A stretch of DNA of 34,663 bases from Methanobacteriota archaeon (GTDB lineage Archaea > Thermoplasmatota > Thermoplasmata > RBG-16-68-12), in contig VBML01000055.1 in the NCBI GenBank assembly GCA_005878915.1, forward strand, positions 1 through 34,663, written 5' to 3'. A model generated the notes under the pieces. The model ran no database searches and was not told where the DNA came from. It saw only the letters and a list, made by a program, of their open reading frames with translations. Numbering within the stretch: position 1 is the stretch's first letter; each line of letters begins with the position of its first letter. Both the position numbers and the translations under genes were made by a program. Of this stretch, positions 281-26,226 are shown piece by piece.

Positions 281-3172
281 ATGCGGATTGCAGTCGTCTT
301 CAAAGACCGCTGTCAGCCCAAGCGGTGTAACCTTGAGTGCATCACCTTCTGCCCCCCGCAGCGCACTGGCACTGAGGTCATCTGGATTGACAAGGATTCT
401 GGGAAGGCCGCGATTAGCGAGGAGACGTGCATCTCCTGCGGGATTTGCCTCCCGGCGGGCGTGCCGATTTCTACGAAAGGCGGCGTGGTCCCCGTTGAAA
501 AGGTTGACGTTGGAGAGCTGGTGCTTACGCATGAAGGCCGCTATCGATCGGTCAGGAAAGTCTATCGGCGTTCTTACTCCGGTCTGATGTACAAGATCGT
601 CGCAACCGGCCAGCCCGATGCGCTCGAGGTGACCGAGGAACATCCGATTCTCGCAGTCGTTCGCCGACCCACAAAGCGCGGACGACGCCTCGAGAAGGCG
701 ATCGGTGAGCTTAGGTGGGTTCGTCCTGGGGATCTGAAGAAAGGCGACTACCTAGCCAAGCCTCGGATACGAGAGGCAAGAAGCCAGAACTGGGAGGCGC
801 CGATTCAAGTTGCGCTTTCCGGGGGTCGGTACGTCCGATGGGGCGAGCAGATCGCGTCAATTCCCGTCTCTCCTCGATTGGCGCAGCTTATCGGTTACTA
901 TCTGGCGGAGGGGTCCGCGGACGACCGCAGAGTCGTCTTCTCGTTCCACGAAAAGGAACGGGAATACCTGGATGATGTCCACGCGACTGTTTCTGAGTTC
1001 TTTGGGATCCGAGGACGCGAGTATCAGGGCAACGGGTTAGGCCGGCACATCAGGTTCGACTCATCAATTCTCGCGCGCATCATGAGGAACTTGGGCACGT
1101 CGTCCCATACGAAGCGAATTCCCTCGGTCATCATGACGGCCCCTCGGGAGGTTCGGGCCTCCGTCGTGCGCGGATTGTGGCGGGGGGACGGGTATCGCAA
1201 TCCCGAGCGTAGCTACTTCGTCCTTTCAACGACATCGCAACATCTAGCCTACCAATCTCAGGAACTCTTGGCGAGTTTGGGCATTGTGTCCGGAATAACG
1301 AGCCGAACTGCTCCCGGCAAGAAGCGGGCCTTCCACGTCACCGTCACGGCGGAATTCGTAGCTCCGATGGCGGCGCTGATGGGGTTGCGTTTTGAAGAGC
1401 AACGGAATCGAACCGCGAGCCATTTCATCATTGACGACGAGTATGTTTTCACGCCAATTCGGAGCATCGAAAGCACTCCGGTCTACGACGTGATGGTCCA
1501 CAACCTCGAGGTCGAAGAGGATCAGACCTACCTCGCGGCAGGAACCCTGGTCCATAATTGCGTGAAAAAGTGCCCATTCGACGCAATCCGGATAATCGGA
1601 TTGCCGGAGCCGTTGAAGGAGGACCTCGTCCACCAGTACAGCAAGAACGGGTTCCGGCTGTTCCGCCTCCCTGTCCCGAAAGCGGGCGAGGTCGTGGGCC
1701 TTCTCGGGCCGAACGGGATTGGGAAGACGACCCTCCTCTCGATCCTCAGCGGGGAACTGTGCCCGAACCTGGGCCACTACCGCCGCACGCGGCCGTACTG
1801 GAACGAGGTCCTCGAGAAATACAAGGGGACGGAGGCCCACGAGTACCTTGAGAAGATCGTCTCGAAGGAGATCCGCACCGCCCTGAAGCCGCAGTACGTC
1901 GACAAGCTCCCGAAGGTCGCGAAGGGGACCGTGGGCGATCTCCTGAAGAAAGTGGACGACCAGGGCCGCCTCGATGAGCTCTCGTCCCGCCTCTATCTCG
2001 ATTCTGTGCTGCATCGGGATATTGCGCACCTGAGCGGCGGGGAGCTCCAGCGCACCGCGATCGCGGCGACGATGCTGAAGGATGCGGACGTGTACTTCTT
2101 CGACGAACCCTCCTCGTACCTCGACATCTATCAACGCCTCGAGGTCGCGAAGGTCATCCAAACGCTGTCCAAGGAGAAATACGTCGTCGTCGTGGAGCAC
2201 GACCTGGCCGTCCTCGACTTCCTCGCGGACAGCGTGTACCTTCTCTATGGGTCCGAGGGCGCCTACGGCGTCGTCGCCCAACCCCGGGCCGTCCGCACCG
2301 GGATCAATGTGTACCTCGGCGGCTTCCTGAAGGAGGAGAACATCCGGTTCCGCGACCGGGAGGTCACCTTTGAATCTCGGCCGCCCCGGAAGGATTGGCG
2401 GGCGGAGACCCTTGTGACCTTCGACCGGCTCGAGAAGGCGTTCCCCGACTTCTCCCTCACCGTGGAGGGCGGGCAGCTCCGGAAGGGCGAGGTCGTCGGC
2501 GTCGTGGGTCCGAACGCGACGGGGAAGACGACGTTCGTGAAGATGCTCGCGGGGGAGGAGGCGCCGACGCGGGGTTCCCTGGCGGGGCGGTGGGCCGTCT
2601 CGTACAAGCCGCAGTACATCGAGCCGACCTTCGAGGGGACGGTCCGGGAGCTGTTCGCGGCGACCGTCGGGAATCGCGCGGAGAGCGGATGGTTCGAGAC
2701 GGAGGTCGCCCAGCCCCTCCAGATCCGCGGGATGATGGAACGGCCGGTCACCGAGCTCAGCGGCGGGGAGCTGCAGCGCGTCGCCGTGGGCCTCGCGCTC
2801 ACGCGGGAGGCGGACATCTACCTAATCGACGAGCCCTCCGCGTACCTGGACTCCAATCAACGGATGGCGGCGGCCAGGACGATCCGCCGCGTGATGGAGA
2901 ACCAGGGCCGGACCGGCCTGATCGTGGACCACGATGTGTACTTCATCGACATGGTCGCGGACTCGATCATGGTGTTCAGCGGGGAACCCGGCGTGCGCGG
3001 ACACGGGGAGGGCCCGTTCCCGATGCGGGAGGGGATGAACCGGTTCCTGCAGCTCGTCGAGGTCACGTTCCGCCGGGACGCGGACACTAACCGCCCTCGG
3101 ATCAACAAGCTCGACTCCCGCCTGGACCGCGAGCAGAAGCACGCGGGCGAGTACTACTACGCCCTCGCGTGA
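281..3172 (+). CDS. ABCE1/Rli1 ribosome-recycling ATPase (RNase L inhibitor homologue), interrupted by an in-frame intein
   Basis: 963 aa. N-terminal Fe-S domain CQPKRCNLECITFCP and CISCGI..CVKKCPFDAIRI, two ABC domains (GPNGIGKTT, LSGGELQR, FFDEPSSYLD; GPNATGKTT, LSGGELQR, LIDEPSAYLD), characteristic C-terminus. Confidence 0.97.
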   Translation: MRIAVVFKDRCQPKRCNLECITFCPPQRTGTEVIWIDKDSGKAAISEETCISCGICLPAGVPISTKGGVVPVEKVDVGELVLTHEGRYRSVRKVYRRSYSGLMYKIVATGQPDALEVTEEHPILAVVRRPTKRGRRLEKAIGELRWVRPGDLKKGDYLAKPRIREARSQNWEAPIQVALSGGRYVRWGEQIASIPVSPRLAQLIGYYLAEGSADDRRVVFSFHEKEREYLDDVHATVSEFFGIRGREYQGNGLGRHIRFDSSILARIMRNLGTSSHTKRIPSVIMTAPREVRASVVRGLWRGDGYRNPERSYFVLSTTSQHLAYQSQELLASLGIVSGITSRTAPGKKRAFHVTVTAEFVAPMAALMGLRFEEQRNRTASHFIIDDEYVFTPIRSIESTPVYDVMVHNLEVEEDQTYLAAGTLVHNCVKKCPFDAIRIIGLPEPLKEDLVHQYSKNGFRLFRLPVPKAGEVVGLLGPNGIGKTTLLSILSGELCPNLGHYRRTRPYWNEVLEKYKGTEAHEYLEKIVSKEIRTALKPQYVDKLPKVAKGTVGDLLKKVDDQGRLDELSSRLYLDSVLHRDIAHLSGGELQRTAIAATMLKDADVYFFDEPSSYLDIYQRLEVAKVIQTLSKEKYVVVVEHDLAVLDFLADSVYLLYGSEGAYGVVAQPRAVRTGINVYLGGFLKEENIRFRDREVTFESRPPRKDWRAETLVTFDRLEKAFPDFSLTVEGGQLRKGEVVGVVGPNATGKTTFVKMLAGEEAPTRGSLAGRWAVSYKPQYIEPTFEGTVRELFAATVGNRAESGWFETEVAQPLQIRGMMERPVTELSGGELQRVAVGLALTREADIYLIDEPSAYLDSNQRMAAARTIRRVMENQGRTGLIVDHDVYFIDMVADSIMVFSGEPGVRGHGEGPFPMREGMNRFLQLVEVTFRRDADTNRPRINKLDSRLDREQKHAGEYYYALA
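446..1558 (+). other. Intein (371 aa) with LAGLIDADG/DOD homing endonuclease, inside ABCE1
   Basis: Starts at Cys (CLPAGVPISTKGGVVPVEKVDVGELVLT, block A); block B ALEVTEEHPILAV; DOD blocks LAQLIGYYLAEGS, KRIPSVIM and VVRGLWRGDGY; blocks F/G VYDVMVHNLEVEEDQTYLAAGTLVHN followed by Cys+1. Excision gives CISCGI-CVKKCPFDAI, an uninterrupted ABCE1 ferredoxin motif. Confidence 0.96.
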
Positions 3173-8261: not shown

Positions 8262-9251
8262 ATGAGGGCCCTACGGCTAGCCCTTCTCGGCATTCTCGCG
8301 CTCGCTCTCTTAGCAGTCGCGCTCCCCGCCATCTCTCGTGCGACAGACCCGCCGGGCATGGACGGAGGGATGGACCCGCAACTCGTGCTCCTGGCGGACA
8401 TCCGGTCCGACTTCAATGTCATGGAATCGGGCTCGGCCCTCCCGATGCGCGTGGTCGTCGTGGACCAGCACGGGGTTCCCGTTCCGGGGGCCCTGGTCGA
8501 TATTTCGGCCGCCGGAGCGTCGGCAGCGCCATCCTCCGGGGTGACGGACGCGGATGGCGTCTTCCGGTTCCGGCTGACGGCGGGTCCTGCTTCGAGTCCT
8601 CTGCGGACGACGGTGATTGCGATCGCCACCATCCCGGGCGCGGCGACGGGATCGGACAGTTTCGCCCTCACAATTGCCCCGAAGCCGGTCCCCTTGCAGA
8701 TCCTCCCGCAGCACGAGGCCGTCTCTGTTGGGCTGGGGGCCCTCCTCGCGGCCGTGTTCTTGAGCACAGAGTTCGGCCGGTATGGCGTCTTCAAGGTCCT
8801 CGTCTTCCCGTTGTACTCCCGTCTGAAGAAGGAGGAGGTCCTCGATCACTTCGTCCGGGGCCAGATCTACGGGTACATCGTGTCCCACCCGGGGCAACAC
8901 TACAATTCAATGCGTCAGGATCTGAGGGTGACGAACGGCACGCTGGCCCATCACCTGCGGACCCTGGAGATGATGGGGTTCATCAAGTCCTACCGGGACG
9001 GGGTCTTCAAGCGGTTCTACCCCGTGGAGGTGTCGATCCCGCAGGAGAGCGGCGTCAAGCTGAGCGACCTCCAGATGAGGATGCTCGATCTCGTCCGGAG
9101 CGGCTCGGGGCCGACGCAGATGGAGATCGCGGAGCGGCTGAGCGTGACCCAGCAGACGGTCTCATACAACCTCCGGACGTTGAGCCGCGAAGGCGCGGTC
9201 CGGATGGAGAAGGACGGCCGGAACACCCGGTACTACCCGCTCGCCGCGTGA
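8262..9251 (+). CDS. Membrane-anchored winged-helix regulator: signal/TM, extracellular Ig-like domain, TM, two cytoplasmic wHTH domains
   Basis: N-terminal hydrophobic segment; VVVVDQHGVPVPGALVDISAAGAS...GVTDADGVFRFRLTAG (Ig/CarboxypepD_reg-like); TM AVSVGLGALLAAVFLSTEF; wHTH GYIVSHPGQHYNSMRQDLRVTNGTLAHHLRTLEMMGFIKSYRDGVFKRFYP and PTQMEIAERLSVTQQTVSYNLRTLSREGAVRMEKDGRNTRYYPL. Confidence 0.82.
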   Translation: MRALRLALLGILALALLAVALPAISRATDPPGMDGGMDPQLVLLADIRSDFNVMESGSALPMRVVVVDQHGVPVPGALVDISAAGASAAPSSGVTDADGVFRFRLTAGPASSPLRTTVIAIATIPGAATGSDSFALTIAPKPVPLQILPQHEAVSVGLGALLAAVFLSTEFGRYGVFKVLVFPLYSRLKKEEVLDHFVRGQIYGYIVSHPGQHYNSMRQDLRVTNGTLAHHLRTLEMMGFIKSYRDGVFKRFYPVEVSIPQESGVKLSDLQMRMLDLVRSGSGPTQMEIAERLSVTQQTVSYNLRTLSREGAVRMEKDGRNTRYYPLAA

Positions 9252-10568: not shown

Positions 10569-11453
10569 GTGAAGCTTGGATTCCTCGTCCTGGCGACGCT
10601 CGTCCTTCTCGGCGTCATGATATCTGCCGTCTCGCCCCCCTCACGCGCGGTGTGGCCCTCGCCGGTCTTCGAGGACAACCTTGCCGTTCAGGCGAGCCCG
10701 GTTCGGCCCACGGACCAGGACCGGGTCACAATCGTGATTCGGACCATCCCCGCGAACACGTTCATCAAAGGGGCGACGATCTACGTCACGATTACGGACC
10801 CGGACAACGTCACGCAGGGGCCGTTCCCGAACCCCATGGTGCCCGGCAGCCCGCCCACGCAGGCGACGTTCGGCATCCGCTCGTACCCGAATGGAACGGA
10901 CGTGAGCTACTACATCGTCGCCTGGGATTTCGAGAATGATGTCGTGACGAGTCACTCCTATGCGTATCGAGTGGAGGGCGCCCCCTCGTTCGGCTGGCGG
11001 CATCCCGGATTCGATGAGAACGTCGAGGTGATCCTGTACCCGCCGCTCCCACAGCCGCACGACGAGGTGACCGTTTCCATCCGGAGCCGGGAGGCGAACG
11101 TCCGCATCGCGGGGGCGAACCTCCTCATCCGGTACGTCTACCAGGCCGACCCGCCGAAGGCCGGCGGGTTCGTGATGGCGTACGAGAACGCGACGGATCT
11201 CGCCGCAACGATCCCCGGATTCCCTCCGGGGACGCAGGTGATCTACTGGGTCACCGCATGGGACAAAGACGTGGAGACGATCACGTCCCCCCTGTTCTCG
11301 TACAACCTATCGGTTGACAAGTACACGCGCCATGAGAACGTCCCGTTCCCCTCTCCAGAAGCGTACGTCGGGACGTCCATCGGCCTTGCCGTCCTCGTCC
11401 CCATCGCGGTGTACTTCGCGGACATTCGGAGAAAGCGGAGGTCGCTGAAGTGA
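10569..11453 (+). CDS. Surface protein with two Ig-like repeats and C-terminal TM anchor
   Basis: Signal LGFLVLATLVLLGVMISAV; two parallel segments (PTDQDRVTIVIRTIPANTFIKGATIYVTI... / PHDEVTVSIRSREANVRIAGANLLIRY..., each followed by YYIVAWDFEND / IYWVTAWDKDVE); C-terminal TM and RRKRRSLK. Confidence 0.75.
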   Translation: MKLGFLVLATLVLLGVMISAVSPPSRAVWPSPVFEDNLAVQASPVRPTDQDRVTIVIRTIPANTFIKGATIYVTITDPDNVTQGPFPNPMVPGSPPTQATFGIRSYPNGTDVSYYIVAWDFENDVVTSHSYAYRVEGAPSFGWRHPGFDENVEVILYPPLPQPHDEVTVSIRSREANVRIAGANLLIRYVYQADPPKAGGFVMAYENATDLAATIPGFPPGTQVIYWVTAWDKDVETITSPLFSYNLSVDKYTRHENVPFPSPEAYVGTSIGLAVLVPIAVYFADIRRKRRSLK

Positions 11454-14158
11454 CGGCCCTCGATACGACGGTCCGTCCGCGCAGGCGAGGCATCACGGAT
11501 TCGATCTCGGATCGGGTGCGGGCGCTCAAGCTCCCCACGATCCAGTCGATCTGGATTACGGAACGCTCCCGCCCCGCGCTCGTGAAGGGCGCCGCGTTCT
11601 TCGCCCTCGCGGCGACGGGGTTCGCCTGGATCCCCTTCTACCCGTGGTGGGCCGTCGTGTTCTTCGCGTTCGTCGTCGGGGCGCTCGCGCTGCGGTTCCC
11701 CTTGTTCGCGGTGATCTCCCTCGGTGTCCTTGTGTCCGCCGCGGCCGCCGCGCAGATGGTCGAGTTCGGCCTGTTCTTCCTCGTCTTTACCCTGGCGATC
11801 TCGATCGTCTCCCTCTTCGACTGGAGATTCGGGTACCTCGTCTTCGGGTCCGTGTTCCTCTCCCTCCTCGGTGTCCCGTACCTCCCCCCAATCTGCGCGG
11901 CGGTCGTGTTCACGCGGTTCCTCGCGGTGGCGTCGATGGCGGCCTCCGCGACGTTCCTCTCCTTCCTCGTGACGTGCGGGAACCTCAATGTGGCCGGCTT
12001 CTTCGTGGGGCCCCCTCACGGGCTCCCTCCGACGAGTTTCCTGGTCTTCGGGACGGCCCCGAGGCCGGACTGGACTCCGGGAGCCCTCGGGGGCGCCCTC
12101 TCCTCGATCGGGCTTGCGAACCCCGATGTGATTTCGACCCTCCTCTCGACGAATTACGGCGCCTCTCTCGTCCCATTCCTCGAGATCGTCCTCTGGTGTG
12201 GCATCGTGTTCGTCATTGCGGAGCTCATCCGTCGGAAGGACTCGTTGGAGAACTGGGTGTTCACCGCCGCGGTCGCGACAATCGCTTTGGCGGCGGGATT
12301 CACGCTCTCGAGCCTCGCCCTTCAGGTCCCGATCCCCGCCGAATCGGCGGCGCTGCTCGTGGGCGCCTTCGGGCTGATCGCCGGGACGACGGCGGCCGGC
12401 GTCCTGGGGAAGGAGGCGTTCCGGGAATACTTCCTGGGTCAGGTCGCGACGACGGTGGGCCGGCGTCTCGCCGATGTCCCCGAGGCCCGCTCGACGACGT
12501 TCTCCCTCGTCGGCGGCCTCGCGGACGTAAAGGCGGACCTGAAGGAGTCGATCGTCGTCCCGTTGAAGAGGCCCGAGGTCGCCGCCCAGTATGGCATCAC
12601 CCCGCCCCGCGGCATCCTCCTGTTCGGCCCGCCGGGGTGCGGGAAGACGCTGTTGATGTCCGCCCTGGCCGGCGAGCTGGACATCGAAATGTTCACCGTG
12701 AAGTGCTCGGACGTGATGTCGAAGTGGTACGGTGAGAGCGAGCAGAAGATCGAGCAGCTGTTCCGGACCGCCAAGGAGCGCCGCCCGGCGATCATCTTCT
12801 TCGACGACATCGACGCGATCGCGAAGTCCCGCGACCTCTACGCGGGCGATGACGTCACCCCTCGGCTCCTCGGGATGATCCTCTCCGAGATCGATGGCCT
12901 CGACAAGTCCCCGGGGATGATCATGGTCGGGACGACGAACAAGCCGGAGCTCCTCGACTCCGCCCTCCTGCGGCCGGGGCGGTTCGACAAGATCGTCTAC
13001 GTCCCGCCGCCGTCGCGCCCGGAGCGGCTCGAGATCGTGAAGGTCCACCTCGCGGGCCGCCCCGCGTCCCCCGCTCTCGACCTTGGCGAAATCGCGGAAC
13101 GAACGGAGCGCTTCTCGGGGGCGGACCTTGCGAACCTCGTGAAGGAGAGCGCGGTCCTCGCGATGAAGCGCTCCCTCTCCGTGGGCCGCCCGGTGGCGAT
13201 CTCGTCGGAAGACTTCGAGGAGGTGCTGCCGAAGATGAAGCCCAGCATCACCCTGGCGCAGGCGGAGGAGTACGAGCGCCTCCGGCTGATTTACGAGCGG
13301 AAGATGCACCGGCTCGACCGGGAGGTGGAGGCCCTTGGATGGGCGGACGTTCGCGGCTTGGAGGAGCTCAAGGCCTCGCTGAGGGCGTACATGGACCTCG
13401 TCTTCACGAAGGCGGGAGCGATGGCGGACTTCCGCGTCAAGGCCTCGAAGGGGGTCCTCCTGTTCGGCCCGCCCGGGTGCGGGAAGACGTATCTGATGCG
13501 GGCCGCCGCGAACGAACTTGGGATCCCCGTCCAGGTCATCGAGGGGCCGTCCCTCCTGTCCGCCGGCGGGGATGGCGGGGCCACGATCAAGGAGATCTTC
13601 TACATCGCGCGGGAGAACGCGCCCTCCGTCGTCCTCTTCGACGACATCGATCTGATCGCCTCCGCGAACGACCGAAGCCCGGAGTCCCGCAACCTCCTCT
13701 CCCAGTTCCTGGCGCAGGTCGATTCCATCGGCGAGCAGGGGCGGGTCCTCGTCGTCGCGACGACGAACCGGCCGCACGTCCTCGAACACGCCCTTCTCCG
13801 TCCCGGTCGGTTCGACAAGCTGTTCTTCGTCCCGCCCCCGGACCCCGAGGCACGCCTTGCCCTCGCCGAATCCGCGCTGCATGGCGTGCCCACGGTTGGA
13901 CTGGGCCGCGACGTCCTTGCTCGGCTGACCCGCGAAGCGGAGGGGTTCTCCAGCGCGGACATCATGGCAGCCGTCGATGAAGCGAAGTTCCTTGCGATCC
14001 GGGAGGGAGCGCGGGAGGTTGCGGCGGGCCACCTGGAGGCGGCGTTCGCCCGCTTCCGACCCTCCGTTACCCCGGAGTCCCTCGCTTCGTCGCGGGAGTT
14101 CATCCGGGTGCACAATGTTCGCGTCGCGATCGGAGGTCCCGAGGAGACGGAACCGTGA
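11450..14158 (+). CDS. Polytopic membrane protein with two tandem AAA+ (Cdc48/Msp1-like) ATPase domains
   Basis: About 300 aa of hydrophobic TM segments, then AAA D1 (GPPGCGKT, KWYGESE pore loop, FFDDID, RPGRFD) and AAA D2 (GPPGCGKT, LFDDID, RPGRFD). No FtsH-type HExxH protease motif. Confidence 0.93.
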   Translation: MTALDTTVRPRRRGITDSISDRVRALKLPTIQSIWITERSRPALVKGAAFFALAATGFAWIPFYPWWAVVFFAFVVGALALRFPLFAVISLGVLVSAAAAAQMVEFGLFFLVFTLAISIVSLFDWRFGYLVFGSVFLSLLGVPYLPPICAAVVFTRFLAVASMAASATFLSFLVTCGNLNVAGFFVGPPHGLPPTSFLVFGTAPRPDWTPGALGGALSSIGLANPDVISTLLSTNYGASLVPFLEIVLWCGIVFVIAELIRRKDSLENWVFTAAVATIALAAGFTLSSLALQVPIPAESAALLVGAFGLIAGTTAAGVLGKEAFREYFLGQVATTVGRRLADVPEARSTTFSLVGGLADVKADLKESIVVPLKRPEVAAQYGITPPRGILLFGPPGCGKTLLMSALAGELDIEMFTVKCSDVMSKWYGESEQKIEQLFRTAKERRPAIIFFDDIDAIAKSRDLYAGDDVTPRLLGMILSEIDGLDKSPGMIMVGTTNKPELLDSALLRPGRFDKIVYVPPPSRPERLEIVKVHLAGRPASPALDLGEIAERTERFSGADLANLVKESAVLAMKRSLSVGRPVAISSEDFEEVLPKMKPSITLAQAEEYERLRLIYERKMHRLDREVEALGWADVRGLEELKASLRAYMDLVFTKAGAMADFRVKASKGVLLFGPPGCGKTYLMRAAANELGIPVQVIEGPSLLSAGGDGGATIKEIFYIARENAPSVVLFDDIDLIASANDRSPESRNLLSQFLAQVDSIGEQGRVLVVATTNRPHVLEHALLRPGRFDKLFFVPPPDPEARLALAESALHGVPTVGLGRDVLARLTREAEGFSSADIMAAVDEAKFLAIREGAREVAAGHLEAAFARFRPSVTPESLASSREFIRVHNVRVAIGGPEETEP

Positions 14159-14451
14159 CGCCGTTCGAGGTCTTCTTGCTCGGGCTTGTTGCGACGGTGT
14201 TCGCCGTCGCCATCGTCGCCCTCCGGTTTCCCCGGGGACGCGCCGAGTGGCCGCTGGACGCCCGCCGCACGGCGTGGCTCCTCATCAGCGGGCTCACCGC
14301 CGTGGTCGTGTTCGCCCTCTCATACGCGGCGACGAGGGACGTGCGGTGGCCCGATTTCGTGACAGTGACCTTCGTCGTCGTCTCTCTATGCCTCGCCCTT
14401 CTCGTTGCGGTTTCCGTCTTCCTCCCTCAGGGCCTTCGCGCGCGACCGTGA
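14155..14451 (+). CDS. Small membrane protein (about 3 TM), translationally coupled to the AAA+ gene
   Basis: 98 aa hydrophobic ORF; GTG start overlaps the AAA+ TGA (GTGA). Confidence 0.65.
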   Translation: MTPFEVFLLGLVATVFAVAIVALRFPRGRAEWPLDARRTAWLLISGLTAVVVFALSYAATRDVRWPDFVTVTFVVVSLCLALLVAVSVFLPQGLRARP

Positions 14452-16365
14452 CCGCCAGAACACCGCGAGAAGCCCGATGGCAAGGATGACCACCGACACG
14501 CCCCAGATGGGGACGAGGTCCACCCGCCTCGGCGCGTGCTCGATGTCGAAGGCGAACAAGTACGTCGTGCCGAGGCGATTCCCCGCGAGATCCGTCGCGG
14601 AATCCTGGACCTCGACAAAATACGTTGTTCCGAACTGCGGGTCCGCGATGGCGAAGCTCACGGACCGGCCGTCGGGGGTCCATTGAAAGTCGCTAACGCG
14701 GTGATTGAGGACCAGGATGGCCGCCTCCGTTGCGGTCCGGTTCATCGGCTCCGAGAACGTGATCGTGATGCGGGAACCGAACCGAACGCCAACGGAGTCC
14801 GCCGCGGGGATCGTGTCCGTGACCTCGGGCCGGACCTGGTCGGTCTGGAGGAACGTCTCCGTATGGGTCCGGGACATATTCACGACGCGCGGGGTCTCAC
14901 GGAACGCGTACGTCGGGTGGTTCACGGCGACCTCGACGACGGGCCGGGTAAGGGTCGGCGGCCCCTGGGTCTCCTCGAGGCGGGCGAGGACCCCGTAGAT
15001 CGCGACGTTCCAGCGGCTCCACCCATCGTCGTCCGTCGTCGAGCGGCGGATTTCCGCGCCGTCCTGGAAAACCCGCACGACGGTCTCCGGGATCGGGACT
15101 GAGATCTCAGTAAGGGTCCGGACATGGAGGAAGTTCTTCACCGTGAGGGTGGAGCGCTGGTCGGTGAAGTTCACCGCGCTCATCGAGAACTCGTTGTTCA
15201 GGGACACAATCTGCGACACGCTCGAGAGGTGGAACTGGTCGCTCGAGTTTGTCAGGGTCGAGTTCATCACGGTGATCGAGCTGTTCGCCGCGAAGATGAG
15301 GGCGTCGTTGTTCCGGAGACGCGCATGCGATACGGTCACGTTAACGCAGTCGTAGCACGTAAGCAGGCCCTGTAGCGTCGCATTCCCGGTGAATCCCGAG
15401 CCGCGGCCGGAGTCGAGTTCGACCCCCTCGATCTCGAGGTCACGTTCCCCGACTCGGTAGAGGGTCTCAAGCGGAATACCGTTCACGACGTTGCCGCGGG
15501 AGAGGGGGAGGGCGCCCTTCGAGTCGTATGGGATGTCGACCCCGACCCCGTTGTTCTGGATCACGTTGTCCCGCAGGATGGGCGACGCAAACGTCATCAG
15601 TAGACCCTCTCCTCCAATGCTGGGCAGCCCGTTTCCTTCGATTGTGTTGTTCACGAGCAGCGGGTCGGCGCCGACGATCCAGACGCCCCGCCACCCGTTG
15701 CGGATCGTGTTGTTCTCGATGCGGGGCTCCCCAAGGTAGACGTAGATGCCGAAGTAGTTGTCCGTGAGCACGTTGTTCCGGACGACGGCGTCCGATTCCT
15801 GCATCACAATGCCGGTCCGCTGGTTGAACAGCTGTGTATGGATCGCGTTGTTTTCAATGAGCGGGGCCGCGTTCGGGCCGATCACCTGAATCGCGCTGCG
15901 CCCGCTCTCGAGAATCGAGTTATTCGCGATTCGAGGCGAGCACTGCCGGATGTCCAGGGTCGTTGAGCCCCACGCGAAATCGGTCCACTCGAACACAGAA
16001 CCGACGGATCCTTGGAGCCGGATGGAGGTCCAGTCGTTTCGATCGGGGAAGGCGGCGTCCGAGGTGAACGTCACCCGGAGATTGGGCTGCCCCACGGAGA
16101 TGATCGTACCGAACACGATGATGGAGTGGGCGCTCGGCGTCGTTTGGAAGCGAACGTCGGTCCCGGGTTCGATGGTTAGGGTGATCCCCACGGGAACCGT
16201 CAGGTCATCAAAGACAATGTATGGGCTGCCAGGGATCGTCCATGTCGTGTTCGCGGTCAATGTCCCGGAGACGAACGTCGGGCCCGCACGCGCGCTGTGG
16301 GTGAACACTAGGGATCCTCCGAAGACAAGGAGCACTGCGAGCCCAAGAACCGCCCCCGCGCGCAC
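14386..16365 (-). CDS. Surface right-handed beta-helix (NosD/pectate-lyase-fold-like) protein with SbsA-like Ig domain and C-terminal TM
   Basis: Repeated NN/N-ladder segments (PRIANNSILESG, APLIENNAIHTQ, AVVRNNVLTDNYFGIYVYLGEPRIENNTIRNGWRGVWIVGADPLLVNNTIEGNG); DTIPAADSVGVRFGSRITITFSEPMNRTATEAAILV...GTTYFVEVQDSATDLAGNRLG; terminal TM. Confidence 0.85.
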   Translation of the reverse strand: MRAGAVLGLAVLLVFGGSLVFTHSARAGPTFVSGTLTANTTWTIPGSPYIVFDDLTVPVGITLTIEPGTDVRFQTTPSAHSIIVFGTIISVGQPNLRVTFTSDAAFPDRNDWTSIRLQGSVGSVFEWTDFAWGSTTLDIRQCSPRIANNSILESGRSAIQVIGPNAAPLIENNAIHTQLFNQRTGIVMQESDAVVRNNVLTDNYFGIYVYLGEPRIENNTIRNGWRGVWIVGADPLLVNNTIEGNGLPSIGGEGLLMTFASPILRDNVIQNNGVGVDIPYDSKGALPLSRGNVVNGIPLETLYRVGERDLEIEGVELDSGRGSGFTGNATLQGLLTCYDCVNVTVSHARLRNNDALIFAANSSITVMNSTLTNSSDQFHLSSVSQIVSLNNEFSMSAVNFTDQRSTLTVKNFLHVRTLTEISVPIPETVVRVFQDGAEIRRSTTDDDGWSRWNVAIYGVLARLEETQGPPTLTRPVVEVAVNHPTYAFRETPRVVNMSRTHTETFLQTDQVRPEVTDTIPAADSVGVRFGSRITITFSEPMNRTATEAAILVLNHRVSDFQWTPDGRSVSFAIADPQFGTTYFVEVQDSATDLAGNRLGTTYLFAFDIEHAPRRVDLVPIWGVSVVILAIGLLAVFWRSRSRAKALREEDGNRNEKGEA

Positions 16366-19632: not shown

Positions 19633-21300
19633 ATGAGGCTCAGGACGTACTTGATTCGGCGAGCGATTCACACGGTGATCACGCTTCTCGTTGTCCTCGT
19701 CCTCCTGTTCGTGATCTTCCGCCTGATGCCGGGCGACCCGACGCGCTTCTTCATCGCACCGGGGCAGCCCCCGCAGGTGCGCGAAGAGCTGTGTGTCAAC
19801 TTCGGCCTGTGCAAATGGGTGAGCGCGCCGGGGAACGGATACGAAGGGCGAATCCAAGCGGGTGAGTTCGGGGCGTACAACCTGACCGCGTTCGTGAACG
19901 ATACCGCCGGGACCCGTTGTGGTGGGAACGTTTGCAACTATTCGTTCGTGTACAACAACTACCCTAGCGAGGTCCAGCAGAGGACTCATCCTGCGGTGAA
20001 GATTCTTGACGTCACAATGTCGGCCGCCGGCGGGCCCGCGCGGCCGAGCCTGCCGGACGCGGCCCCTGGTGATCCGATCACGATCCGGGCGCGCATCATT
20101 GGGTCGACCACCCAGACGCTGCGCGTGTTGAGCCCCGGGTCCGGTTGGGCCTTTCCCCTGACTGTCGACGATGGCAGTGACAAATTCCATTGGGGTGTCG
20201 TCGCCAGCGCGTCGGTCGGGGCCGATCGCAAACACTGGGCCGTCCTGACCGCGAACGACGGCGCCGGGACGTGGGTGAACCTGACGTTCGGTTTCGCTGC
20301 CAACAGCCCGGTGCCGGGGTTCGACCTCGTTGAGGGCAAGTTCTTCGGGATCCGACCGGTGTCCCAGTTGAACGTCGCTGTCATCAGCGTGAATGTGACA
20401 TCCCGGGCTGCCGCGATTCGGGGAGTCACCCTAAATGTCGACTCGCAGCCGACGGGCGGCGGCCAGCGGGACATCCATCTCTTCCATCCGCAGCAAGCCG
20501 TTCGCCGCAGCCTCGCCGAGCAGTTCGTCCTCTACTTCATCAACATGATGTCGGGGAATTTCGGCACATCGTTCTATACGCACATCCCGGTCACCGACGA
20601 GATTGCCGTCCGGATCGGACCGACCTTGCTCCTGTTCGGATCGTCCGTGGTCATCTCCTACATCCTCGGGATCCTGCTGGGCGCGATCCTCGCTTGGCGC
20701 CGCGGCACGAAGATGGAGCTCTCGGCGATCGTCGTGAGCCTGTTCTTCTACTCCATGCCGGTCTTCTGGTTCGGGCTCGTGCTCCTGTGGGCCTTCGCGT
20801 TCACGCTCAAGGCCCTCCCGCTCCAGGGGATCGGTGGGTTCGATAACTACGGCAACCCGTACACTGGCTTCGCGTTGGTGCAGGACATCCTTTGGCATAT
20901 GACCCTCCCGCTCGCGAACCTAGTGATCCTGGGCCTCGCGGGTCACGTCCTGCTGATGCGGAACAGCATGCTCGAGGTGATGGGCGAGGACTACATCCTG
21001 ACCGCAAAGGCCAAGGGGCTCAGCGAGCGGAAGGTGATGTACCGGCACGCCGCCCGCAACGCGCTGCTGCCCGTCGTGACGGCCCTGGCGATTTCGATTG
21101 GCGGGGTGATCAGCGGCGGAGTGCTCACGGAGACGATCTTTTCGTGGCCCGGGATGGGCTTTTTCCTCGTGACCCGGACCCTGGCGCAGGACTTCCCCGC
21201 CGTGCAGGCGGCGTTCTTCATCCTCGCCGTGCTCACGATTCTCGCGAACTCCGTCGCCGATGTCCTCTATGCCTACTTGGATCCCCGCGTGAGGCTCTAG
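19633..21300 (+). CDS. DppB-type permease with large extracellular insertion after TM1
   Basis: N-term RRAIHTVITLLVVLVLLFVIFRLMPGDPTRFF; C-term SGNFGTSFYTHIPVTDEIAVRIGPTLLLFGSSVV...MRNSMLEVMGEDYILTAKAKGLSERKVMYRHAARNALLPVVTALA. About 220 aa of extra sequence between. Confidence 0.92.
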   Translation: MRLRTYLIRRAIHTVITLLVVLVLLFVIFRLMPGDPTRFFIAPGQPPQVREELCVNFGLCKWVSAPGNGYEGRIQAGEFGAYNLTAFVNDTAGTRCGGNVCNYSFVYNNYPSEVQQRTHPAVKILDVTMSAAGGPARPSLPDAAPGDPITIRARIIGSTTQTLRVLSPGSGWAFPLTVDDGSDKFHWGVVASASVGADRKHWAVLTANDGAGTWVNLTFGFAANSPVPGFDLVEGKFFGIRPVSQLNVAVISVNVTSRAAAIRGVTLNVDSQPTGGGQRDIHLFHPQQAVRRSLAEQFVLYFINMMSGNFGTSFYTHIPVTDEIAVRIGPTLLLFGSSVVISYILGILLGAILAWRRGTKMELSAIVVSLFFYSMPVFWFGLVLLWAFAFTLKALPLQGIGGFDNYGNPYTGFALVQDILWHMTLPLANLVILGLAGHVLLMRNSMLEVMGEDYILTAKAKGLSERKVMYRHAARNALLPVVTALAISIGGVISGGVLTETIFSWPGMGFFLVTRTLAQDFPAVQAAFFILAVLTILANSVADVLYAYLDPRVRL

Positions 21301-23676
21301 ATGTTCTCGAAGCGGGGAATCCGGGACAGGTACGACAGCTGGAAGAAGCTGTTCCTCCAGAACTGGACATTGTTCAAGGCGAGCCGGATCGGCCTCGTAG
21401 GCCTCGCGATCATGATTGCGTTCCTCATCGTCGCGGCCGCCGTCCCCTACCTGGGCCTCCGGGACCCGCTGTACTGGATCGCCCCGGAATCCGACACGAT
21501 TGCGGTCACGCAATGGTGGCGGCAGGAGGTGATCCCCAGCAACGTACTGTTCGGCGTCAACGGAAGCGTCGATCACGCGGTCGCGTTTCGCACCTTGGTG
21601 TATCAGTCCGGCGAACATCGCGTGGATCGCATCTATGTCGCAGAGAACACCCGAATCTTCGCCCTCGAGACCGATTTCGCAACCCTGAAGTGGAATTGCC
21701 CGGGCGGAGGCTTCCAGGCAAACGATACGATCTCCGTGGACCCCGTCGTGTTGAACTACGGGGACTTTCGGAGCACGGCCCAGACCCATACCTACGATTT
21801 CCACCTGATGTTTGGGGACCGGAGCGGCAATGTTTACGCGATGCAGGATAATGACGACACTGGGTGCCCGGTTCCTCTGAGGGTGACCCTTGGATCGCCG
21901 ATCACGGGACTTGCGGCCCTGACTGTCGACGATCTGTCTGGGCTGACCGACCGGGACGCGTTCGTCGTCGGGACGGCGGATGGACACCTATACGCGTTCA
22001 CGGTCAATCGGACCTCCGGTCCGTTCTACGAAGAGCTATGGAACACGACCCTGAGCCCAGGGTCCCCTGTGCATCTCGCGGGCTCCGTCGTCAGAACGAA
22101 TGAGGGTGTACCCACCTCCTCCCCCGCCTTTTTCTATTCCGCCGTGACCTCATCCCGCTTGGGGGAGACCGTTTTCGCCGGCACCGGCGATGGATGGGTG
22201 TGGTCCGTGTGGATGTCGAACGGTACCGTTCGCTGGTCGAAGCTACTGGGAACCGGCGCCCCGTGGTCGAGCGCACCGATCGTGCAGCCGGCGTCGGAGA
22301 TCACTCCCGTGAAGCCCACGCTCGTGTACGCGACGACGAAGGACGCTCCCCTCCCTGTCGGAACCAACGCGACGAAGGTGTATGTCCTCGACGCGGAGAC
22401 GGGACGCCCGCTGGCGAGTTGGCAGCAAGTCGTTCCAGCGGGGGACGGCGGCCTCCCGATCGTCTACCGCGGGGCGATCGACACCGGTGTCCCGAACACG
22501 CCCGCGGTCTTTGGGTCGAGCATCTACGTGACGACGAGCACCGGCTGGTTGTACAGCGTCAATCGGGATCCCGTGCGAGGGACCGGTGGCGTCATCGTCC
22601 AAGATGCCGGGACGGTCGCTTGGGCGTTTCGAGATGTCACGTTCCGCCAGGACGCGAAGCACACGACATACTTCCGCGCCCAACCGTATTTCTTCAACAA
22701 CCTTCAGCTTCTCGTCGCCCCGGGGAGCTACAACAATGGCACGGCGGGCGAGTCGGACGATCTCGGGATCGTCTACGTGTTCAATGGAGCCACGGGATCC
22801 CTCGTGTGGAAGCGGACCTTTCAATTCGCGATCCTGGGGATGGCGCCTGCTTGGCCCGACAAGCAGCACGATCTGCCCTCTGTGTTCTTCGGCACGGTTC
22901 GGGGGGACATCTACTCCTACAGCATCTCGGGCCGCGTGATCGCTCCGCTCCCCCCGAGCTGGGTCCGGTCCAGGCCGTGTCCTGCCGGGGAGAGATGCGA
23001 GTACTACATCCTCGGCACGGACGCCCGTGGGCGGGACATCTTCAGCCAGCTCCTCTGGGGGAGCCGCATCGCCCTCCTCGTGGGGTTCGCCTCCGCGTTC
23101 TTCACAATTTCCATCGGGGTGATCATCGGACTCGTCGCGGGCTATCTCGGGGGTCGGGTCGAAAACATCCTGATGCGGTTCACGGACGTCATCCTCGTGA
23201 TCCCCGGACTCCCGCTCGTGATCATCCTCGCCGCGGTCCTCGGCGCCGGCGTTGGAAACATCATCCTCGTCATTTCCATTGTGGGATGGCCCGGCGTCGC
23301 CCGTGTGATCCGGGCGGAAGTGCTCTCCCTGAAGGAGCGCCCGTTCATCGACTCCGCGAAGGTGACGGGGGCGAGCAACGTGCGGATCATGTTCCGCCAC
23401 ATCGCGCCGAACGTCGCGCCCCTCGCGTTCCTGTACATGACGTTCGCCGTCAGCGGCGCGATCCTGACGGAGGCGGCCCTGAGCTTCATCGGGCTCGGGG
23501 ACGTGAACACGATCAGTTGGGGACTGATGTTGCAGGACGTCTCGCAGTCGAAGGCGTTGCAGGCGTGGTGGTGGCTATTGCCTCCGGGGCTCGCGATCAC
23601 CCTGATCTCCCTCGCCTTCTTCCTCGTCGGGCGGGCGTTCGATGAAATCGTGAACCCGAGGCTGAGAAAACGGTAG
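21301..23676 (+). CDS. DppC-type permease with an inserted PQQ/WD-like beta-propeller domain
   Basis: TM1 SRIGLVGLAIMIAFLIVAAAV; C-terminal YILGTDARGRDIFSQLLWGSRIALLVGFASAFFTISIGVIIGLVAGYLGG...ILTEAALSFIGLG. Between them repeated propeller blades (DRIYVAENTRIFALETDFATLKW, FVVGTADGHLYAFTVNRTSG, VFAGTGDGWVWSVWMSNGTVRWSK, KVYVLDAETGRPLASW, SIYVTTSTGWLYSVNRDP, IVYVFNGATGSLVWKR, VFFGTVRGDIYSYSISG). Confidence 0.93.
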   Translation: MFSKRGIRDRYDSWKKLFLQNWTLFKASRIGLVGLAIMIAFLIVAAAVPYLGLRDPLYWIAPESDTIAVTQWWRQEVIPSNVLFGVNGSVDHAVAFRTLVYQSGEHRVDRIYVAENTRIFALETDFATLKWNCPGGGFQANDTISVDPVVLNYGDFRSTAQTHTYDFHLMFGDRSGNVYAMQDNDDTGCPVPLRVTLGSPITGLAALTVDDLSGLTDRDAFVVGTADGHLYAFTVNRTSGPFYEELWNTTLSPGSPVHLAGSVVRTNEGVPTSSPAFFYSAVTSSRLGETVFAGTGDGWVWSVWMSNGTVRWSKLLGTGAPWSSAPIVQPASEITPVKPTLVYATTKDAPLPVGTNATKVYVLDAETGRPLASWQQVVPAGDGGLPIVYRGAIDTGVPNTPAVFGSSIYVTTSTGWLYSVNRDPVRGTGGVIVQDAGTVAWAFRDVTFRQDAKHTTYFRAQPYFFNNLQLLVAPGSYNNGTAGESDDLGIVYVFNGATGSLVWKRTFQFAILGMAPAWPDKQHDLPSVFFGTVRGDIYSYSISGRVIAPLPPSWVRSRPCPAGERCEYYILGTDARGRDIFSQLLWGSRIALLVGFASAFFTISIGVIIGLVAGYLGGRVENILMRFTDVILVIPGLPLVIILAAVLGAGVGNIILVISIVGWPGVARVIRAEVLSLKERPFIDSAKVTGASNVRIMFRHIAPNVAPLAFLYMTFAVSGAILTEAALSFIGLGDVNTISWGLMLQDVSQSKALQAWWWLLPPGLAITLISLAFFLVGRAFDEIVNPRLRKR

Positions 23677-23705: not shown

Positions 23706-25031
23706 GTGAAGGACCTCCGAGTCTACTTCCGGATCATGAAGGGCACCGTGAAGGCGGTCGACGGCGTCTCGTTCCAGCTGAAGCGCGGGGAGACGATGGG
23801 ACTCGTCGGGGAGAGCGGGTGCGGGAAGACGACGACCGCGTACGCGATCACCCGGCTCCTCCCGAACAACGGGGAGATTGTCGGCGGGGAGATCCGATTC
23901 AACAACGCCCTCGTCGGGCGCGCCCATGTCGCCACGGAGGTGAACGAGGCGCTGAAGCGGACGACATGGTTCGAGGAGGTCCAGGCGATCCTCGGGAGCC
24001 AGGAGGCGGAGATCGCCGAGCGCCAGAAGGCCCTGATGGAGGCGGAGGCCCGCGTGGCGGCCGCCCCGGAGGAGGCCCGCGGTCCCCTGATCGCCGCCGT
24101 CGATCCGATCCGCGCGCAGGTGGCGGCGCGCCTGCACGAGGCCGAGCTCATCCAGACGCTCCGCGCGGTGGGGGCGGCCCCGCCGTCGGACGAGCTGAAG
24201 GCCGCCCTTCAGGCGGTCGTCGACGACGACTTGAAAGGGTTCACCGCCGCCCGCCGAAGGCGGCGGATGGACCGGGAGATCGAGACGGAGATCAACACGA
24301 TCCGGTGGTCCCAGGTCTCGATGATCTTCCAGAGCGCGATGAACGCGTTCAACCCCGTGTACCGGGTCGGGGACCAGATCGCGGAGGCCCTCCTGACGCA
24401 TTTCCCGGACATGACGAAGGAGCAGGCCCGCGACCGCGTGCTGCAGCTGTTCAGCCGCGTCGGGATCGACCAGAGCCGCGTCGACGGGTACCCGCACGAG
24501 TTCAGCGGGGGGATGCGGCAGCGGTCGATGATCGCGATGGCCCTCGCGTGCAACCCCCAGCTCCTGATTGCGGACGAGCCGACGACGGCCCTCGACGTGA
24601 TCATGCAGGACCGGATCCTCGCGGAGATCCGCGACCTGCAGCGGGAGCTGAACATCTCGATGATCATCATCACGCACGACATCTCCGTCGTCGCGGAGGT
24701 CGCCGAGAAGATCGGGATCATGTACGGCGGGAAGCTCTTCGAGTACGGGAACATCATGGAGGTGTTCGACCGGCCCGCGAACCCGTACACCCTCGGGCTC
24801 ATGTCCGCGTTCCCCAGCATCAAGGGGAACCGGAAGCGCCTCCGGGCGATCCCCGGGAGCCCGCCGGACCTCAGCGACCCGCCGCCGGGCTGCCGCTTCC
24901 ATCCGCGGTGTCGGTTCGCGCAGGAGATCTGCCGCGAGAAGGACCCGCCGATGGTCGAGGTCGCCTCCGGCCACTGGTCCCTGTGCCACTTCGCGAAGGA
25001 GATCTACGAGGGCACGCTGAGGGAGAGCTGA
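23706..25031 (+). CDS. DppD-type ABC ATPase with helical insertion between Walker A and Q-loop
   Basis: GESGCGKTTTAYAITRLLP, FSGGMRQRSMIAMALACNPQLLIADEPTTALDV, C-terminal oligopeptide-ATPase CRFHPRCRFAQEIC. About 130 aa extra (NEALKRTTWFEEVQAILGSQEAEIAERQKALMEAEARVAAA...). Start could lie slightly upstream (CTG 23697). Confidence 0.93.
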   Translation: MKDLRVYFRIMKGTVKAVDGVSFQLKRGETMGLVGESGCGKTTTAYAITRLLPNNGEIVGGEIRFNNALVGRAHVATEVNEALKRTTWFEEVQAILGSQEAEIAERQKALMEAEARVAAAPEEARGPLIAAVDPIRAQVAARLHEAELIQTLRAVGAAPPSDELKAALQAVVDDDLKGFTAARRRRRMDREIETEINTIRWSQVSMIFQSAMNAFNPVYRVGDQIAEALLTHFPDMTKEQARDRVLQLFSRVGIDQSRVDGYPHEFSGGMRQRSMIAMALACNPQLLIADEPTTALDVIMQDRILAEIRDLQRELNISMIIITHDISVVAEVAEKIGIMYGGKLFEYGNIMEVFDRPANPYTLGLMSAFPSIKGNRKRLRAIPGSPPDLSDPPPGCRFHPRCRFAQEICREKDPPMVEVASGHWSLCHFAKEIYEGTLRES

Positions 25032-25032
25032 C

Positions 25033-26226
25033 ATGGCCGTCGCGGAGAGCCTGGCGCCGGAGCAGGCGAAGGGGGACGTCGTCTACAGCGTCGAGAACCT
25101 CGTCAAGCTGTTCCCGATCAAGGCGGGGTTCCTGGGATCCCTGTTCAGCCCGGAGCAGTACGTGCACGCCGTCGACGGCGTGAGCTTCGACATCCGGGAG
25201 GGGGAGATCCTCGGGGTCGTCGGGGAGAGCGGGTGCGGGAAGACGACGACGGGCCGGCTCCTCGTCCGCCTGGAGACCCCGACGTCCGGCCACATGTTCT
25301 TCCGCGGGGTGGACATCGCGACCCTGAGGGGCAACGAGCTCCGGGAGTTCCGGCGGAAGGTCCAGATGATCTTCCAGGACCCGTACGAGTCCCTGAACCC
25401 GCGGTTCACCGTGTTCGCGACGGTGTCCGAGCCGCTCCTCGTCCACGGGGTCGGGGAGACGTACGACGAGCGGGAGGAGATGGTCTCCCGCGCCCTCGAG
25501 AGCGCGGAGCTGAAGCCCGCGGAGGAGTACATGTACCGCTTCCCGCACGAGCTCAGCGGGGGGCAGCGGCAGCGCGTCGCGATCGCGCGGGCGCTCGTGC
25601 TGCGCCCGGAGTTCGTCGTCGCGGACGAGCCCGTGTCGATGCTGGACGTGTCGATCCGAGCGGGGATCATGAACCTCATGCTGAACCTCCGTCAGGAGTA
25701 CGAGATCCCGTTCATGTTCATCTCCCACGACGTCTCCGTGACGCGGTACATGTCCCACCGGATCGCGGTGATGTACCTCGGGGTCATTGTCGAGCTCGCG
25801 AGCGCGGAGGAGGTGATCAAGAACCCGATGCACCCGTACACGGAGGCGCTCCTGAGCGCGGTGCCGGTGCCGGACCCGAAGGCGAAGCACGGCCGGGTCG
25901 AGATCAAGGGAGAGCTCCCGAGCCCGATCAACGTCCCGAGCGGGTGCACGTTCCACCCGCGGTGCCTCTACCGGCGGGACATCTGCAAGGAGGTGAAGCC
26001 GGTCCTCCGGGAGATCGTCCCGGGGCACTGGGTTCACTGCCACTTCGCGGGGGAGATCAAGACCCGGAAGCCGGACGACATCCCGATCGAGGAGGGGACG
26101 TGCGACGTGTGCCACGAGTACGTGACCGCCGCGATGCCGTCGAGGGTCTGCAACTGCCCGCGGATCTATCACGCGGAGCACGCGGCGCAGCTCGGCTCGT
26201 GTCCGATCTGCAAGAAACGGTTTTGA
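25033..26226 (+). CDS. DppF-type ABC ATPase with C-terminal RING/PHD-like zinc domain
   Basis: GESGCGKTTTGRLLVRLE, LSGGQRQRVAIARALVLRPEFVVADEPVSMLDVS, CTFHPRCLYRRDIC; C-terminal CDVCHEYVTAAMPSRVCNCPRIYHAEHAAQLGSCPICKKRF. Confidence 0.94.
   Translation: MAVAESLAPEQAKGDVVYSVENLVKLFPIKAGFLGSLFSPEQYVHAVDGVSFDIREGEILGVVGESGCGKTTTGRLLVRLETPTSGHMFFRGVDIATLRGNELREFRRKVQMIFQDPYESLNPRFTVFATVSEPLLVHGVGETYDEREEMVSRALESAELKPAEEYMYRFPHELSGGQRQRVAIARALVLRPEFVVADEPVSMLDVSIRAGIMNLMLNLRQEYEIPFMFISHDVSVTRYMSHRIAVMYLGVIVELASAEEVIKNPMHPYTEALLSAVPVPDPKAKHGRVEIKGELPSPINVPSGCTFHPRCLYRRDICKEVKPVLREIVPGHWVHCHFAGEIKTRKPDDIPIEEGTCDVCHEYVTAAMPSRVCNCPRIYHAEHAAQLGSCPICKKRF

Follow-up and report, generated by a model that had tools for sequence, protein, structure and literature searches.

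The operon and the domain carried by its DppC

The DNA analysed here (hereafter the window) is a single contig of 34,663 nucleotides from a metagenome-assembled genome (2.1 Mb, 83% complete, 239 contigs), in which stretch five tightly packed genes follow one another in the order SBP–DppB–DppC–DppD–DppF (Table 1). To judge from its gene products, this operon is a type I ABC peptide importer of the Dpp/Opp family in the Thermoplasmata, the import of peptides being what family membership would predict. The DppC reading frame is uninterrupted, its ATG following immediately upon the dppB stop, and its C-terminal part matches Pfam BPD_transp_1 over residues 606–790 (E 2.4e-28; 99.6 bits at a cut-off of 26.4). 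Where a DppC should have six transmembrane helices, hydropathy shows five clear peaks; in the transmembrane domain (TMD) the AF2 model is all-helical at a pLDDT below 50, and Foldseek matches it to the DppC fold. The Pfam family OppC_N did not match the DppC of the window, and scored above the cut-off in the relatives L011, L013, L078, L079, and others.

Elsewhere in the window, an ABCE1/RLI-like protein is split by an intein (281–3172; Hint, LAGLIDADG, and intein-splicing matches); a frame at 8262–9251 joins an extracellular-like Big_1/CarboxypepD_reg-like part to the DNA-binding domains HTH_HVO_0163 and a MarR-like HTH; a 902-aa protein (11450–14158) combines, as read from the sequence, an N-terminal multi-TM region with two AAA ATPase modules; and the complementary strand encodes a surface protein with NosD-like and Big_5 parts (14386–16365).

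Table 1. Positions of the operon genes and of their domains in the window, and of the sister-clade DppCs in their own loci.
Feature	Residues	Nucleotides	Strand	Evidence
SBP (SBP_bac_5), 978 aa		16620..19556	+	Pfam SBP_bac_5 8e-40
SBP Ig-like stalk, C-terminal	~710-935			Pfam weak Filamin/Big_1
SBP C-terminal TM anchor	949-967			Hydropathy
DppB-like permease, 555 aa, with ~225-aa insert		19633..21300	+	Pfam BPD_transp_1 2.3e-39; BPD_transp_1_N at 5-61
DppB extra extracellular domain, weakly Fn3/Ig-like	~62-285	19816..20487	+	Fn3_arc E 0.017; alignment with ordinary DppB
DppC-like permease with embedded propeller, 791 aa		21301..23676	+	
TM1 of DppC	30-48	21388..21444	+	Hydropathy peak 2.89; K/R: 4 before, 1 after
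Eight-bladed PQQ/BamB-type beta-propeller	~90-552	21568..22956	+	AF2, Foldseek, hhalign self-repeats, profile against PDB
Propeller blades	95-131, 149-196, 201-250, 271-315, 327-370, 402-444, 463-507, 517-546			AF2 strands
Other nested repeat site, blade 3	~211-213	21931-21939		tblastn break points, G025, G029
Kelch nesting site, loop c-d of blade 3	~234-243	22000..22029	+	tblastn break points, G023, G027, G036 and others
GTDxxGRD segment of DppC, preceding TM2	572-579	23014..23037	+	Columns invariant or near-invariant
BPD_transp_1 transmembrane part of DppC, coupling-helix motif (VTGAS)		23038..23673	+	Pfam; DppC 8z1v 6.4e-46; Foldseek 8z1z_B 40% identity
DppD-like ATPase		23706..25031	+	Pfam ABC_tran and oligo_HPY
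DppF-like ATPase with C-terminal Cys/His zinc-finger-like tail		25033..26226	+	Pfam ABC_tran and oligo_HPY
Sister-clade DppCs		L074:2516-4831, L075:1516-3846, L076:1331-3799, L077:1770-4142, L078:1929-4397, L081:1441-3783, L082:1870-4209	-, -, +, -, +, +, -	

Between TM1 and the GTDxxGRD segment, the DppC carries some 480 aa of extra sequence. As a single sequence this insert scored 20.5 bits with Pfam PQQ_2, below the cut-off of 27.6, which threshold was passed by the relatives L008, L011, L013, L079, L080, and L084 (up to 70.9 bits). A DppC profile, built from a family alignment of 12 rows, recovered from the PDB the designed Cake propellers (9e-39), 3hxj (5e-11), and BamB (about 1e-8), together with DppC itself. 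When that profile was compared with itself in hhalign, matches appeared at shifts near 58, 115, 178, 234, 297, and 362 residues (E 1.4e-13, 2e-11, 3e-9, and onward), which are multiples of about 59 aa and thus define a unit of that length and a total of eight blades; the same test applied to the TMD as a control gave no off-diagonal repeats. The AF2 model, with pLDDT values mostly of 75–93 over the propeller, presents the strand pattern a, b, c, d eight times, as four-stranded blades, and BamB occupied nearly all of the top 20 Foldseek matches to the PDB (E 5.8e-13 to 4e-11; target-normalised TM 0.64–0.75), a search that also recovered the E. coli DppC. In the TMD the pLDDT fell below 50 because the 12 sequences were few and nearly identical there, so that the model does not predict the geometry of the propeller with respect to the membrane. 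These results confirm that the DppC carries an eight-bladed PQQ/BamB-type propeller in its TM1–TM2 loop.

A preliminary description of this DNA, made from the letters alone, had placed an insert with six to eight propeller-like repeats at 21530–22985, within the DppC, after TM1 and before the GTDxxGRD segment, and outside the cell. Those coordinates proved accurate, the repeat strings that it quoted are all present in the DppC, the location within the chain was borne out by the profile, AF2, and Foldseek, which last two returned a propeller fold, and the extracellular side agrees with the topology of DppC; of its range of blade numbers, the self-comparison and the model retain only eight.

The same description had suggested that the propeller might bind cofactors. 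Its likeness, in both sequence and fold, to the PQQ propeller superfamily might point to an enzyme, dependent on PQQ or otherwise, whose activity is coupled to transport; but the conserved positions are structural only, no member contains a vicinal Cys pair (three members have no Cys whatever), and PqqC remained below the cut-off in 26 related genomes—a result to be read with the reservation that 14 control genomes were also without a match, so that the search had no positive control. For these reasons, and with the best fold matches being BamB-type propellers, which lack a cofactor, we consider an enzymatic function very improbable.

Relatives, history, and nested domains

With a profile of TM1 plus the propeller at E <= 1e-20, matches were obtained in 37 of the 300 genomes of the class, belonging to 18 of its 91 genera, so that the search for further permeases with PQQ-like insertions, suggested in the preliminary description, returned the same architecture. 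Full-length homologs of the DppC occur within the genus (69% and 66% identity), the family, the order, and the class, the named relatives of the locus all being assemblies of Thermoplasmata, Thermoplasmatota, Methanomassiliicoccales, Proteinoplasmatales, or "Euryarchaeota", several of them from a single soil set (EA_ numbers). The arrangement of the operon is identical at every relative locus with enough flanking sequence, and the SBPs upstream in L023 and L032 are 74% and 71% identical to that of the window.

The dN/dS values were 0.11–0.37 for the propeller versus 0.04–0.11 for the TMD, by which measure the propeller-bearing DppC is under purifying selection. Since the window is a contig from an incomplete and fragmented assembly, an artefact of assembly or annotation, or a chance fusion in that one genome, might be invoked; but the recurrence of the architecture in many independent metagenome-assembled genomes, the purifying selection, and the presence of the sister-clade form described below in a genome assembled as one contig (L078; 1,486,778 bp) lead us to discount that explanation almost entirely.

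As controls we took 18 further Dpp loci, located in related genomes or in that of the window itself. Where measurable, the ordinary DppC loop in these loci comprised 22–40 aa, and the ordinary DppB 305–382 aa. The sole exception was the other DppC of the window's genome (L085:2148-3788, minus strand), whose TM1–GTD loop has an intermediate length of 178 aa, and whose neighbours are a DppB of the ordinary kind and an SBP frame of 909 aa. In a tree of 44 rows calculated from the permease part only, one branch (support 95/87) separated the ordinary DppCs from those with a large loop, which topology fits a single gain of the loop. Among the PQQ-type members there arises a clade (L074–L078, L081, and L082; support 100/99) whose DppCs have, at the same TM1–TM2 site, a different domain of some 480–540 aa, in which we found no Pfam, PQQ, self-repeat, or PDB similarity; the SBPs of this sister clade, where seen, measure 1541–1781 aa.

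At least twice independently, in two later lineages, a second repeat domain has been nested into blade 3 of the propeller. In the first type the guest is a Kelch propeller (Pfam Kelch 4.6e-41), seen in L037 (9001–12204), L038, L040, and L030, in which proteins a propeller thus lies within a propeller within a DppC. The model of the L037 protein (1068 aa; AF2 m9bbc7293db51) had a mean pLDDT of 73.8 and a pTM of 0.71, and its best fold matches were mostly WD proteins with tandem propellers, plus the Cake propellers and DppC. In the second type, seen in L029 (8962–12477) and L033 (2977–6480), the guest is a different, propeller-like repeat with units of about 49 aa and the pattern YASLALD...PxIAYYD...LKYA, for which no sequence relative was found in Pfam or the PDB. 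In L029, moreover, DppB and DppC are contained in a single open frame of 1718 aa. According to the modelled blades, both guests would emerge from loops (a-b and c-d) on one propeller face, opposite the entry and exit of the chain; because of that opposition the nesting face is, on geometric grounds, probably the membrane-distal one.

Relation to known importers and propellers

With the DppBCDF and OppBCDF importers (E. coli DppC, 8z1v; M. tuberculosis DppC, 8wd9, and OppC, 8j5q) the present operon shares the BPD_transp_1 TMD, the GTDxxGRD segment, the coupling helix, an SBP_bac_5 partner, and oligo_HPY ATPases with four C-terminal Cys. It differs from those systems in the DppC TM1–TM2 loop, of about 480–890 aa and folded as a propeller; in the approximately 225 extra aa of the DppB after the scoop; and in the SBP, anchored through a stalk and a C-terminal TM. 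Two haloarchaeal DppCs that we considered have 325 aa each. BamB and the PQQ-like eight-bladed propellers (3hxj and the Cake designs) have the blade motif, the number of blades, and the fold in common with the insert; but the latter, with an identity as low as 12–15%, is embedded between TM1 and TM2 of an ABC permease and does not belong to an outer-membrane complex as a lipoprotein. The P2 domain of MalF in the maltose importer is likewise a large extracytoplasmic domain within a type I importer TMD, one able to contact the SBP; yet it comprises residues 91–271, about 180 aa, as opposed to the roughly 480 aa of the DppC insert, is not a propeller, and belongs to another TMD loop and to another importer family.

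In the open-access literature that we searched (subscription papers and preprints lying outside it) we met with no account of an ABC-importer permease containing a propeller, and among 72,556 plasmids none of the 3319 permease matches covered 80% of the query, most bacterial chromosomes being outside that search. The propeller-bearing architecture therefore appears not to have been described, and is at the same time widespread, as an inheritance of many species within one class of uncultured archaea; accordingly, of the two properties that the preliminary description had named, taken together, as refuting its claim, wide occurrence was found, within the Thermoplasmata, and prior documentation was not. 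In the usual picture of type I ABC importers, an SBP that is soluble or tethered by a lipid hands its substrate to membrane subunits that are rather bare; a conserved lineage with a 50-kDa propeller borne by the permease, and with enlarged partners, points to another arrangement of peptide uptake outside the cell in protein-feeding archaea. These proteins also offer a testable system for asking how a transporter chain can accept large domains, and such domains one another, and still remain intact. In annotation pipelines the label "ABC permease" alone hides such a domain architecture.

Partner subunits and possible roles of the propeller

We infer that the propeller is extracellular, on the outer face of the membrane, from the topology of DppC (PMC12136057), the charge bias around TM1, and the enrichment in N-glycosylation sequons, of which the inserts contain 76 versus 38 expected—a twofold excess—and the TMD none. 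Those sequons might also indicate a structural foot or spacer, by which the transporter would be fixed or kept at a distance in the cell envelope of the archaeon (S-layer or glycocalyx), with which idea the Ig/Fn3-like expansions of the partner subunits and the secreted beta-propeller proteins reported in Thermoplasmatales (PMC10354927) would be consistent; within this group of genomes, however, there are ordinary Dpp importers that lack a propeller, and no S-layer-binding motif was found, so that we regard an envelope anchor as decidedly unlikely.

In E. coli, DppA caps DppB and DppC, and the scoop motif in the TM1–TM2 region of DppB enters the DppA cleft (PMC12136057). Within the genus, TM1 plus the scoop of DppB are 93–95% identical, for which reason the ordinary docking of the SBP is probably kept. 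Directly after that conserved scoop, where an ordinary DppB runs FGL|DxP without interruption, most of the propeller-bearing members have a DppB insert of about 225–300 extra residues, which is 54–64% identical within the genus. The insert is not obligatory, since in L079 and L080 a propeller-bearing DppC stands beside an ordinary DppB of about 330 aa; an obligate co-expansion of DppB and DppC, which we had entertained, was consequently rejected. The SBP is enlarged throughout, measuring 876–995 aa beside a propeller-bearing DppC as against 558–862 aa in the ordinary operons, and the large SBPs carry Ig-like domains and a C-terminal TM; with a single gain in the tree, however, this association of SBP size with the DppC loop counts statistically as one event.

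Among the gating, glycan binding, and docking that had been put forward for the propeller, the docking or scaffolding of the SBP has the best circumstantial support. Our best guess, a tentative one and the weakest step of the argument, is that the propeller, located beside the binding-protein dock on the outer face, might serve, without any catalysis of its own, as a scaffold or as a collar for docking. Such a collar would act together with the SBP in its enlarged form and, in the majority of lineages, with the insert of DppB; it would hold the SBP, stalked and anchored in the membrane, above the pore, and might help to enclose the outward-facing cavity. On its membrane-distal face the propeller could bear optional modules for further binding, among them the nested Kelch and other repeats. 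The way in which SBP size follows the large DppC loop argues for this proposal, as does the precedent of the periplasmic MalF-P2 domain, which contacts MalE (PMC3150292). The presence of the propeller in members without the DppB insert, in contrast, argues against it, as does the rate at which the propeller evolves: its within-genus identity is 53–57%, compared to 94–96% for the TMD, 78–80% for the SBP lobes, and 63–67% for the SBP stalk, a faster divergence than that of the lobes and the TMD, which would be unexpected for one tight shared interface.

Because the propeller outpaces the SBP lobes, outward recognition is a serious rival to the collar, and possible, if on the unlikely side. Under that alternative the propeller would be a receptor whose partner is not the SBP but might be a longer polypeptide, a secreted protease, a polymer or glycan at a surface, or another cell; in this way it would bring substrate to the importer, and the nested repeats would diversify its binding. 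Its standing as the fastest-evolving part of the operon, with a dN/dS of 0.23–0.37 as opposed to 0.07–0.11 for the TMD, points in this direction. So does the nesting, on two independent occasions, of unrelated repeat domains on a single face, and so do the sequence-related PQQ-like propellers that occur outside any transporter chain, whether in Ser/Thr kinases of Streptomyces or as haloarchaeal proteins in their own right. The propeller has, on the other hand, no conserved ligand-like cluster and is joined to the permease on the side of the SBP dock, and no conserved neighbouring gene for a protease or other partner was identified. A further proposal, which we consider rather improbable, would make the propeller an active part of transport, namely a receptor or gate on the outside, coupled to the TMDs, by which substrates are selected or delivered, in which event these operons would form a distinct importer subclass, expandable by the nesting of a second propeller.

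The ATPase subunits have additions of their own. In the DppD of the window, a charged insert of about 95–120 aa, probably helical, lies between the Walker A motif and the Q-loop (23919–24275), and is absent from L035, L039, L041, and L043. The Cys/His zinc-finger (RING-like) tail of the DppF (26098–26223) is absent from other relatives and is kept in L023, L032, L030, L037, L038, L040, and L028, in which last locus it gives weak matches to Prok-RING_1 and zf-RING_2.
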